From the NCBI GenBank assembly GCA_025062325.1, contig JANXAL010000142.1, positions 1 through 43,010 of the forward strand: DNA of 43,010 bases. The letters run 5' to 3'. Each line of letters opens with the position of its first letter. Position 1 is the stretch's first letter. The position numbers were made by a program, and so were the translations under genes. Origin of the DNA: Roseiflexus sp. GTDB taxonomy: Bacteria > Chloroflexota > Chloroflexia > Chloroflexales > Roseiflexaceae. Of the stretch, positions 1 to 40,208 are shown piece after piece. The notes under the pieces were generated by a model that saw only the letters and a program-made list of their open reading frames with translations, was not told the DNA's origin and did not search any database.

Positions 1-491
1 CCCTCCGGTTTCAATCCCCTTCATTGCGGGGCTTTTGTTTTTTGCGCCGCCCGGGAGGAAGAAATGTTCTTCGAAATCAAAGTTTCAATCCCCTTCATTG
101 CGGGGCTTTTGTTTTTTGCGCCGGGTGGGTGTGGGTGCTCACCCGGCGTTGAAAGTTTCAATCCCCTTCATTGCGGGGCTTTTGTTTTTTCGCCTCCGCG
201 CGGGGCGCATGGGCGGCGCGAAAGGCGCTGTTTCAATCCCCTTCATTGCGGGGCTTTTGTTTTTTCATCTCTTTGCGCGCTGTCTCGTTTGGAGAACGTA
301 TCTCGTTTCAATCCCCTTCATTGCGGGGCTTTTGTTTTTTGAGACAAACCTCCGCGGGGACGCGGTGGGGCTTTCTGCGTTTCAATCCCCTTCATTGCGG
401 GGCTTTTGTTTTTTCGCATCTCTTTGCGCGCTGTTTCGTTTGGAGAACGTATCTCGTTTCAATCCCCTTCATTGCGGGGCTTTTGTTTTTT
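1..491 (-). CRISPR. CRISPR array end, 7 repeats of 36 bp
   Basis: Seven identical 36-bp repeats lie at 8-43, 82-117, 155-190, 230-265, 305-340, 379-414 and 456-491. Each begins GTTTCAATCCCC on the plus strand and ends in CTTTTGTTTTTT. The six spacers are 37-41 bp. Bases 1-7 are the tail of another spacer, so the array continues to the left. On the minus strand the repeat ends in ATTGAAAC, the usual 8-nt 5' tag of crRNAs in type I and III systems, and contains a CCCC/GGGG stem. I therefore infer transcription on the minus strand with the leader right of 491. The last repeat on that side is not degenerate, which fits. No cas gene is in the window, so the subtype cannot be set. Spacers at 266-304 and 415-455 are almost the same sequence. 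Confidence 0.97.
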
Positions 492-932
492 CCCCTCTCA
501 CGACGCCCCTTATCGTCTGTGGCATCTGGACGCGCTCGGCGCATTGCGCCTCTGACCGGCTTGCCTGCGCCGTTTTGCGATTTTGGCGGGTGAGACGTAT
601 CATGACGCGGTATGAGCAGTATAGCAGGTCATTGCCGCCGAGGTCAAGCAGAATCGCTGCGCCGAATGCGGCTGTGACTTGGCAAGGTTGTACCCGGACT
701 CCGCCAGGCTCCGCTGCCGGACGAGACTCTGTCTGAGTGGCAATGCCTAAGTATGTACTGGTTGGCTTCGCATCTCTGCGCCATTGCGCTGCGGCGCGCA
801 GCGTCGGCAGGCTGCTGCATTACAAGCCGTTCGAGTGATGCTGCAGAAGCGCGGATGCCTTCACTCCCCTTCTCCAAGGATCTCAGGTTCGACGCACCGG
901 CGCAAAGATGCAGAGTTATCGTCACGAAACGA
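492..932. other. Putative CRISPR leader side and non-coding stretch
   Basis: No convincing gene lies here. If the array is read on the minus strand, the leader should start at 492, but no AT-rich leader or promoter is obvious. At 625-750 on the plus strand there is a short open stretch without a good start. It encodes a Cys-rich peptide with CAEC and further Cys residues that looks like a zinc-ribbon fragment, and it may be the tail of a decayed gene. GCATCTCTGCGCC near 770 and its near reverse complement near 899 form a loose inverted repeat before the next gene. Confidence 0.4.
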
Positions 933-36938: not shown

Positions 36939-38225
36939 ATGAGCACGTATCCATCACCTCCAGAATGCCATGTCTTGCCAGGCGGATTGCGGGTCTTGAT
37001 CGAACCGGTGCCGCACGCACGTTCGGTCTCGGTCGGCTGTTTCGTCGGAGTCGGCGCCGGTCACGAGGAGCGGGACGAGAGCGGGATTGCACATTTTGTT
37101 GAACACATGCTGTTCAAAGGCTCCCAACGCCGCCCATCGCCGAAGTTGATCGCCGACGCCATTGAAGGAGTCGGCGGGATCCTAGACGCCTATACTAGTT
37201 TTGAGTCGACGGTCTACTACGCTAAGGTTGCCGATATCTACTTCGACCGGGCGATCGACGTGCTTTCCGATATGCTGATTGCGCCGCGCTTTGATCCGAT
37301 CGACATTGAAAAAGAGCGTCGCGTTATTGCCGAGGAGTTGCATCAGACCGAGGATACGCCGTCGGAACTGGTGCATCTCTTGCTCGATGCGGCTATGTGG
37401 GGCGACCAGCCGCTGGGGCGGGACATTGCTGGCAGCGAAGAGACGATTGCGGCATTCACTGCCGAACAAATTGTGGCATTCTGGCGCACCCACTACACGA
37501 AGCGGAACATGGTTATTTCGATCGCGGGCCACGTTGAGGCGCCCCGCGCGCTCGAGGCAGTCGCTACCGCTTTTGCTGCGCTTCCCGAAGGAGCGCCGAG
37601 CGCCTGCCTGCCTAGTAAGCCGCCGCTGCCAGGTCCTGCACTAACGCTACGCCGCGACGACAACGAACAGGGGAATTTCTGCATTGGCTTTCGCGGCGTC
37701 GCGTATAACGACCCAGATCGCCGCGCGTTGCTGGTGCTGGACACGGTTGTTGGCAACGGTCCGTCGTCGCGCCTCTTCCAGGAAATTCGGGAAGAACGCG
37801 GGCTGGCGTACCACATTGGCAGTTACAGCCGTGAACATCACGACACTGGGAAGTGGGTCATCTTTGGCAGCGTCGATCCGCCGAACCTGGAAGAGTGCCT
37901 GGCAACCGTCATGGCCGAATTGCGGCACGTGCGCGACGAGGGGATCACTGCCGACGAACTTGCGCAGGTCAAGGAACAAGTCAAGGGTGGCATCCTCCTT
38001 TCACTGGAGGACACCTGGGCCATCGCATCACGCAACGGCTCCCACCAGCTGCGCTATGGGTGCGTCATTCCCATCGAGCAGGTGGTCGCCGAAGTCGAAA
38101 CTGTGTCGCGCGAGGATGTGCTCCGGGTTGCACAGCGGGTGCTACGCAATGAGCACCTGCATGTGGCGGTTATCGGCCCACACGAGGATGCGGCTGGCCT
38201 TGAAAAACTGTTGACGGTCGAGTAA
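36939..38225 (+). CDS. M16 family zinc metallopeptidase (insulinase/processing-peptidase-like)
   Basis: The protein has 428 residues. The inverted zinc motif HFVEH is at 52-56, and the third ligand is probably Glu132 in RRVIAEELHQTED, 76 residues on. The N-terminal VLPGGLRVLIEPVPHARSVSVG and the later GPSSRLFQEIREERGLAYHIGS are standard for the single-chain bacterial M16B form related to mitochondrial processing peptidase. It degrades peptides or processes small proteins. There is no signal peptide, so it should be cytoplasmic. A stem-loop follows 50 bp after the stop. Confidence 0.96.
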   Translation: MSTYPSPPECHVLPGGLRVLIEPVPHARSVSVGCFVGVGAGHEERDESGIAHFVEHMLFKGSQRRPSPKLIADAIEGVGGILDAYTSFESTVYYAKVADIYFDRAIDVLSDMLIAPRFDPIDIEKERRVIAEELHQTEDTPSELVHLLLDAAMWGDQPLGRDIAGSEETIAAFTAEQIVAFWRTHYTKRNMVISIAGHVEAPRALEAVATAFAALPEGAPSACLPSKPPLPGPALTLRRDDNEQGNFCIGFRGVAYNDPDRRALLVLDTVVGNGPSSRLFQEIREERGLAYHIGSYSREHHDTGKWVIFGSVDPPNLEECLATVMAELRHVRDEGITADELAQVKEQVKGGILLSLEDTWAIASRNGSHQLRYGCVIPIEQVVAEVETVSREDVLRVAQRVLRNEHLHVAVIGPHEDAAGLEKLLTVE

Positions 38226-38305: not shown

Positions 38306-38393
38306 GTGTCACAGCCAAGGATGATAGGTCAGATGAGCGGCGAAAGGCAGCGCGTGCTGCCGACCCTGACCGCGCCTTCTGACGCTCATTTGT

Positions 38394-38422
38394 TTGCATC
38401 CGCTCGCGAGACGTGTTACAAT
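38394..38422 (+). promoter_or_regulatory. Promoter of rnpB
   Basis: -35 TTGCAT (38394-38399), 17-bp spacer, -10 TACAAT (38417-38422). The expected start at about 38429-38431 is a few bases before the first paired base of the RNA (38437). Confidence 0.75.
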
Positions 38423-38436
38423 AGACGAGGATCATA

Positions 38437-38878
38437 CGTCGGCAACGTGCCGCCGCTGGAGCGACCCTTCAGAGGAACTTCCCGACTCCCCGCCCGCCGT
38501 AAGGCGGAACGTCGCCCCGCGAAACAACAAGCGGGGGCGCGTGGGTGGTAACGCTCACGTGACGCAAGACGGCAACAGAGAGCAGACCCGCCGATGGCCT
38601 CATTGGGGCTCAGGTGAGGGGTGAAAGGGTGCGGTAAGAGCGCACCGGCGTCGGCAGCAATGTCGGCGGCCAGGCGACTGCGCCGACGATGGGGAGCAAG
38701 GTGTGTGGGGCGGGCTCATCGAGTGGGAGCGGCATATGCCGCGTTCGCACCACCGCGTTCGCTCACACCGCAGCCGCGACGGTGAGGGCGGGTAACACCC
38801 GCCAGGCTAGGAGCGGCCCGCGCTGGGCGCGGAGAGAGATGGCGGCAAACAACAGAATCGGGGGTATAGTTGCCGACG
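38437..38878 (+). ncRNA. rnpB: RNase P RNA, bacterial class A
   Basis: Several universally conserved blocks occur in the right order: CAACAGAGAGCAGACC then GCCGATGGCC, GGGTGAAAGGGTGCGGTAAG then AGCGCACCGG, GGAGCAAGG, and ACAGAATCGGG near the 3' end. The ends pair: CGTCGGCAAC (38437-38446) with GTTGCCGACG (38869-38878) forms helix P1. The RNA is the catalytic subunit that removes 5' leaders from tRNA precursors. The P4 strand that is normally GAAAGTCC reads GAACTTCC here, with matching changes in the 3' strand. It has a promoter upstream and an intrinsic terminator downstream. Exact ends may differ by some bases. Confidence 0.95.
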
Positions 38879-38883
38879 CACAC

Positions 38884-38916
38884 GGGCGGAAGCAGCGCTT
38901 CTGCCCATTTCTTTTT
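38884..38916 (+). terminator. Intrinsic terminator of rnpB
   Basis: GGGCGGAAGC, loop AGC, GCTTCTGCCC (38884-38906) followed by ATTTCTTTTT. The stem has one mismatch; the T-rich tail begins at once. Confidence 0.85.
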
Positions 38917-39078: not shown

Positions 39079-40208
39079 ATGGAATTATTCGCCTCCTTCC
39101 GGTATGGGCTCTTCTTTGCCGCCAGCCCGACGTTTTTCCCGATCATTCTGCGGCGCCTGTGGGGGCGACATCCTTCGAGCTTGCGCTGTACGTCATCTCC
39201 AGGTACATCGGTCAAACGCTCTCACCTTTGAGCCTGACGCTCCTCCGCCGCACATCGCCGTTACGCTTTTCAGTCGTTGCCTGATCATGCGGACGCGGTT
39301 TGCTCCTGTGCGGCGCGCTGCTCACCGGAGCGCCCTGGCTTCTGGCGCTCGCTGCCCTGTTCTGGATCGCCGAGGCGCTGCCATCTCCAGCATATGCGCA
39401 CATCATGCAGCAGATCTACCCGCCGCGCTATCTGGGGCGGGCGATGTCAGCCGTGCGGATCGAGGTCGCTGCCGTAGTGCTGGTCGCAACACCGATTACA
39501 GGGTGGGCGCTTGACCAGGTTAGGCGACAGCTCCTCTTCGCGCTGGCAGCGATCTTTGGCATAGCATTGAGCCTGGTCTTCTCGCGTGTTCGTCCGGTGG
39601 ACGGCGTAGCCGGGGCAACGAGCCAACCGGCGCTTCGGACGCTGTTCCCGATTGTGCGCCATGATCGACGATTTGCGCTGTATCTGCTGGTTCTGACGGT
39701 CTACGGGTTCGGCGCTGTTATGGCGCTGCCGCTCTACCCAATCGTGCAAGTGAGTCGGCTGCAACTTTCGTACACGACAATCGGCTACTTGAATCTGGTG
39801 CAATCAATCTTCTGGCCCGCGGGTTTCTTTGTTTGGGGACGACTGCTTGATTGCTACGGACCATTGTGGGTGCTGCGACTCAGCATTTTGCTGGCAGTCT
39901 TTGTGCCGCTAGCATATGTCTGGGCTGGCGACGCCTGGACGCTTCTGCCCGCCTTTATCTGTCAGGGATTGATGCAGGGCGGCTTTGAATTGGGAATTAC
40001 AACCGGTGTCATCGATCTTGCCGGGCGCGGGCGCGTGATGGAGTACACGGCGCTTCAGGCGGCGACGATCGGTGTGCGCGGCGTGCTGGCGCCGCTGCTT
40101 GGCGCGCTGCTCCTCGGTGCAGGTGTGTCCGAAACGTTGGTGCTCGGAATTGCCGTCGGGCTGGTCGTCATTTCGTGGATGCCGCTTGGCGCGATACGAT
40201 CGCCGTAG
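39079..40208 (+). pseudogene. MFS transporter pseudogene with one frameshift and one nonsense codon
   Basis: The frame starts at the ATG 39079 with MELFASFRYGLFFAASPTFF. Near 39161-39165 a run of five G seems to have lost one G: adding it joins the start to WGATSFELALYVISRYIGQT in the next frame. That frame meets a TGA at 39282-39284 (after RFSVVA) and then continues open as SCGRGLLLCGALLTG to 40208. The restored protein would have about 376 residues and about 12 membrane helices, as expected for a major-facilitator permease; PPRYLGRAMSAVRIE resembles the conserved loop between helices. The undamaged 3' part alone (from 39300) lacks the first two or three helices. Its substrate is unknown. 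It converges with the glycoside hydrolase-like gene. Confidence 0.8.

Follow-up and report, generated by a model that had tools for sequence, protein, structure and literature searches.

A recoded P4 helix marks a putative derived RNase P RNA lineage that cuts across the Chloroflexota species tree

The Roseiflexus stretch analysed here, 43,010 nucleotides in length and hereafter called the window, encodes at 38437-38882 what is most probably the single working RNase P RNA of its genome, with a recoded P4 helix as the mark of one transferred, derived RNA lineage. This reading draws on sequence comparison, and cleavage together with RnpA would follow the normal two-metal route. As a kind, the window RNA is an RNase P RNA; as far as we checked, the new elements are the extent of the P4 recoding, the coherence of the lineage and the spread of that lineage. 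The original prediction of an RNase P RNA whose altered P4 letters compensate each other was borne out, as both strands are altered and pairing is kept. Beyond its view, an entire RNA lineage shows the P4 change as a fixed trait, and this lineage cuts across the species tree.

The rnpB locus and its P4 helix

The covariance match to RF00010 spans the whole model (1-367 of 367; 65.8 bits, E 1.2e-19). The gene had been proposed at 38437-38878; its start is confirmed, and its end lies close to the one proposed, with the model match extending to 38882 (Table 1). The score is below the curated RF00010 cut-off of 100 bits, so that a default Rfam scan of the window misses the gene. The cut-off is likewise reached by none of 60 relatives and, in practice, rnpB of the window's order is missed at default Rfam thresholds. 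Both the model alignment and the consensus fold contain the P13 and P14 hairpins; P15-P17 align poorly to RF00010, and a local hairpin stands at the start of P6. A promoter-like site and a terminator-like hairpin bracket the gene. Beside it, an ORF at 36939-38225 (+) has an HFVEH motif and, we assume, resembles an M16-type peptidase, and the neighboring ORF at 39300-40208 (+) is presumably transporter-like. At the left edge of the window (8-492, minus strand), a CRISPR direct repeat (RF01323) is present in seven copies.

Table 1. Coordinates of rnpB, its structural elements and its flanking signals in the window
Feature	Position	Strand	Basis and remarks
Promoter-like site TTTGCA - 18 - TACAAT	38393..38422	+	Two such sites in the region; shuffles 0.1
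Full-length rnpB (RNase P RNA gene)	38437..38882	+	RF00010 match 1-367 of 367
P1 5' strand	38438..38446	+	Pairs with 38869-38877; sequence and RF00010 model alignment
P4 5' strand, E. coli positions 66-74	38477..38485	+	ACUUCCCGA; U69 bulge at 38480
P5 5' strand	38486..38491	+	Pairs with 38691-38696; consensus fold, eight relatives
Local hairpin after P5, at the place of the E. coli P6 5' strand	38494..38507	+	Consensus fold; common to the variant lineage
P8 with the variant lineage's loop GAAACAACAA	38515..38536	+	Consensus fold and loop pattern counts
P5 3' strand	38691..38696	+	Consensus fold, eight relatives
UGG bulge in P15	38706..38708	+	Consensus fold and UGGG-after-GCAA counts
P4 3' strand, E. 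coli positions 353-360	38858..38865	+	UCGGGGGU
P1 3' strand	38869..38877	+	Sequence and RF00010 model alignment
Terminator-like hairpin, then T-rich tail	38884..38906	+	Region sequence

Both P4 strands were found where they had been predicted, GAACTTCC at 38475-38482 and ATCGGGGGTAT at 38857-38867, and the proposed pairs are correct: all eight are standard pairings, with the bulged U69 (38480) kept. Numbered by alignment to E. coli M1 RNA (L389), the helix consists of A66-U360 (38477 and 38865, respectively), C67-G359, U68.G358, the bulged U69, C70-G357, C71-G356, C72-G355, G73-C354 and A74-U353. Relative to M1, the 5' strand carries C67 (A in E. coli), U68 (G), C72 (G) and A74 (G), and the 3' strand U353 (C in E. 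coli), G355 (C), G358 (C) and G359 (U). Changes on both strands convert 67-359 from A-U to C-G, 68-358 from G-C to U.G and 72-355 from G-C to C-G. The commonly variable pair 74-353 also differs on both sides, and A66-U360, C70-G357, C71-G356 and the bulged U69 are unchanged. In place of the standard P4 letters, AAGUCCG / CGGCUU, the window RNA has ACUUCCC / CGGGGGU with pairing kept.

P4 across the order and the phylum

Our draw from the phylum comprised 399 genomes, of which 49, the window genome counted, belong to the window's order. The variant P4 is carried by 45 of these 49: GAGGAACTTCCCGACTC occurs within one mismatch in 39 genomes, and six further, Herpetosiphon-like genomes were read directly as GAGGCAACTTCCCG / CCAGAATCGGGGGTA. 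The Herpetosiphon-like RNAs (L214-L219) have one extra base (GAGGCAAC) in the joining strand just before P4, beside the metal site. For the remaining four genomes, RF00010 had none among the matches listed, and P4 is unread there. Across a separate collection of 84,980 species, a 21-mer carrying the same P4 was found exactly in 65 contigs. Their titles either give Chloroflexota or do not specify a phylum, with the exception of one labelled Singulisphaera; this contig appears to correspond to G020:C7, a genome of the window's family. Isolated hits in G129 and G003 C1:4045074 (single mismatch), along with the pattern hits L154, L155 and L232, were set aside as chance matches and not rnpB, on the grounds that an RNase P RNA lies elsewhere in the genome or that the hit yielded no RNA.

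Reading P4 from the fetched RNase P loci, with at least seven of eight pairs as the threshold, gave 218 distinct RNAs. P4 could not be read at eight loci: L067, L080 and L116 (contig edges or cut), the chance hits L154, L155 and L232, the partial L262, and L222, which was lost through one G fewer in its 3' G run. All eight pairs are kept in 218 of 218 RNAs, partly by selection, because the reader itself required at least seven; with one strand slid by one position, 56-57% of cells are paired. Seven of the eight pairs take at least two types with both strands changed, and only 66-360 is invariant. At 68-358, U.G (89 RNAs), U-A (11) and C-G (1) occur beside the standard G-C (117), and the U-A and C-G forms in other RNAs independently confirm the P4 register.

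Single flips were also recovered outside the variant lineage, namely C67-G359 (G159), G71-C356 (G178, G208), C72-G355 (G161) and A72-U355 (seven RNAs). In L186 (G159), L196 (G178), L257 (G208) and L261 (G161), a single compensated pair sets P4 apart while the rest of the RNA is standard or type C-like, and these changes are apparently independent of the variant lineage. L186 had raised the possibility that family f30 represents an intermediate lineage; this was rejected, as the 12 other f30 RNAs are standard and the C67-G359 pair of L186 is consequently an independent change.

The P4 bulge is U in 216 of the 218 RNAs and A in two. One of the latter, from G171 (f35, L198), reads AAUAUCC / CGGAGUU and additionally carries U70-A357; the other, from G461 (f101, L267), reads AUUACCC / CGGGGGU. 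The two RNAs, each known from one genome, come from different families of the same order and are exceptions to the rule of an indispensable U69. Each has its rnpB inside a tRNA cluster, a setting that argues for live genes. At the Ardenticatenia-like loci (L156, L104, L106, L114), conserved tRNA genes (Lys, Ala, Val, Met, His, Pro) form a cluster that includes rnpB. Counts of tRNA CCA near rnpB are mixed.

One RNA lineage and the species tree

Judged by its sequence features, the variant P4 appears to mark one derived, class A-like RNase P RNA lineage with a periphery of its own. A local hairpin after P5 is present in all 101 variant RNAs. The L8 loop GAAAC-N(3-4)-AA is found in 93 of them versus 12 of 117 others, and UGGG after GCAA in 90 versus 8. 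Conversely, GGGUWGGY, in our reading the signature of an L15 that binds CCA, is absent from all 101 and present in 42 of the 117 others. The UGG bulge in P15 of the window RNA possibly replaces the tRNA-CCA-binding GGU of L15.

In a 50-RNA tree built without the P4 columns, 23 variant RNAs, both bulged-A forms included, split off together (99/96), a branch present in 100% of 200 bootstrap trees; these RNA trees are short, with 210 columns and long branches. P4-masked profiles, derived from seven Chloroflexales RNAs, seven standard RNAs (E. coli included) and four type C RNAs, placed all 16 held-out variant RNAs with the Chloroflexales profile and all 16 held-out others with the standard or type C profile. 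Two f43 RNAs fit the variant profile weakly (15.4 vs 8.5 bits and 19.2 vs 6.5 bits). The tree of the 101 variant RNAs, in which bootstrap values are not fully settled and several branches are long, resolves the Chloroflexales (70 RNAs) as one clade (99/96) with the Ardenticatenia group (6 RNAs) as its sister (93/87). The 50-RNA tree had placed the Ardenticatenia-like f46 inside Chloroflexales, a position discarded in favor of this sister relationship. Much of the genome material consists of metagenome-assembled genomes.

The rpoB tree, covering 47 of 51 chosen genomes (G461 and G192 had no match, and fragments from G092 and G460 were left out), conflicts with the RNA phylogeny by distributing the variant hosts over at least four separated groups. 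These are the Chloroflexales, whose sister f6 (100/99) has standard RNA; f8; f40 with f43 and, without firm placement, f35; and a fourth group of f46, f64, f83, f93, f95 and f98, unresolved beside the standard f16, f49, f65 and f68. A single clade of variant hosts is rejected by rpoB (dlnL 499, p 2.3e-4). The RNA data, for their part, reject the grouping of Chloroflexales with f6 (p 2e-5), the unity of the G171 order (p 2e-3) and the fourth rpoB group joined to its standard neighbors (p 4e-5). The likeliest account is that one derived rnpB lineage moved horizontally and replaced resident genes, with Chloroflexales perhaps having received theirs from Ardenticatenia-like bacteria. We tentatively entertain, as a serious possibility, a broader interpretation, whereby the recoded P4 and distinct periphery would define a further structural lineage beside A, B and C in Chloroflexota, one that would have displaced the essential resident ribozyme several times by between-class transfer, and whereby the bulged A would work in the order of f35 and f101 as a substitute for the metal-binding bulged U.

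The same RNA could also have reached its present hosts with no transfer, if the ancestor of the phylum held two old rnpB lineages that were differentially lost (paralogy). The variant RNAs are deep and diverse and the rpoB forks partly unresolved, both of which suit such a history, as does G090 (f8), with two rnpB matches that are both of variant type by P4 strand. We nevertheless consider it unlikely, since it needs several independent losses, for instance in f6, and since no genome with a variant and a standard RNA together was found among the matches listed. The G090 pair itself (C161:106323-106692 and C33:4974-5346) is either a true duplicate or an assembly effect.

Far less credible than either horizontal replacement or differential loss is convergence, in which identical P4 letters would have arisen several times independently. 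Lone pairs do flip independently outside the lineage, as in G159, G178, G208 and G161, but the variant RNAs hold together in both the tree and the masked profiles with P4 left out, and they have an architecture in common.

The original prediction had named sequence error, with the standard P4 in close relatives, and an active RNA elsewhere in the genome as the outcomes that would undo it. The standard P4 was not found in the order, where 45 of 49 genomes have the variant and four are unread. Genome-wide (4.73 Mb, 97% complete), 38437-38882 is the sole RF00010 match, and RF00011 (type B RNase P RNA) gave no match at E 0.001. We found rnpA in 51 of 51 genomes searched, the window genome among them, and the RnpA of the window genome retains the RNR motif; protein-only RNase P (TIGR03875) was over cut-off in none of the same 51. 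The sub-cut-off RF00010 score might suggest a sequence error, a pseudogene or an RNA idled by another RNase P, but the chance of this is negligible: the same P4 recurs across the order and in independently sequenced genomes (65 contigs of another collection), which led us to reject sequencing error, the changes are paired within a conserved core, and neither a second RNase P RNA nor a protein-only enzyme over cut-off was found in the genome.

Catalysis and comparison with known RNase P RNAs

We infer that the window RNA would work with RnpA to cleave pre-tRNA, using two metals in the usual way; the catalytic metals would bind to the phosphate backbone of P4 and to the bulged base, not to the base-paired faces of 67 and 68. 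In the Geobacillus stearothermophilus ribozyme, according to the available text of the report, both catalytic metals are bound to backbone phosphates, MeA by A50, A389 and A390, and MeB by A50 and G51 (PMC13254310). These residues would correspond to E. coli 67 and 68 and to the adenines before the P4 3' strand. With the metals on backbone phosphates and the bulged U, the paired P4 letters would be free to change if the geometry stays. Because U69, C70-G357, the ACAGAA segment and the helix length are unaltered in the window RNA, its metal sites should be intact while the 67, 68 and 72 pairs change in step. In E. coli, U69 has been assigned a direct part in catalysis, which is more than 500-fold slower when this base is substituted and about 250-fold slower with C70U, as given in the accessible part of that study (PMC11221534).

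For R. castenholzii, Roseiflexus RS-1 and C. aggregans, the rnpB predictions of Bcheck are only partial, and the portions of that paper available to us contain no P4 account of these partial genes (PMC2996960). Likewise, we found no description of the P4 variant in the open literature searched, a body that lies apart from the classical comparative papers. Older PCR primers were placed on P4, so that such variants would stay hidden. The recovered RNAs amount to a natural series in which seven of eight P4 pairs are changed, singly or together, with pairing always kept, and in which the bulge itself is changed in two RNAs. The series distinguishes features required by the active site (geometry, backbone and bulge) from those merely inherited. 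Many P4 mutations of interest to chemists have already been run by nature, each natural variant has its own RnpA for testing, and the rpoB conflict makes transfer-based replacement of an essential ribozyme testable.

With class (type) A (RF00010; E. coli M1), the window RNA has in common the order P1, P2, P3, P4, P5, the S-domain with P13 and P14, the J5/15 segment GAGCAAG, and ACAGAA before the P4 3' strand. Unlike class A, it has P4 recoded at three pairs, a local hairpin at the start of P6, a different L8 loop, no GGGUWGGY in L15, and an RF00010 score under the cut-off. P13 and P14 are absent from types B and C. Both hairpins are present in the window RNA, and this, together with the tree and the masked profiles, rules out its assignment to type C. 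Type C RNase P RNA is documented from Thermomicrobium roseum and Sphaerobacter thermophilus (PMC7191817, PMC2858038), and, as far as the accessible text of the sources extends, it resembles the variant in its Chloroflexota hosts, its low RF00010 score and its having been missed by Bcheck. P Finder places the S. thermophilus RNA at 1710922-1711286 (PMC7191817), and our RF00010 match in G108 has the same coordinates; this RNA has a standard P4, shows neither P13 nor P14 when aligned, and is not part of the variant clade. The E. coli mutants U69A and C70U, as described in the available part of PMC11221534, concern the same helix in which f35 naturally has A69 and U70, and f101 has A69. The natural U70 of f35 pairs with A357, whereas the laboratory mutants are single changes and are slower in catalysis.
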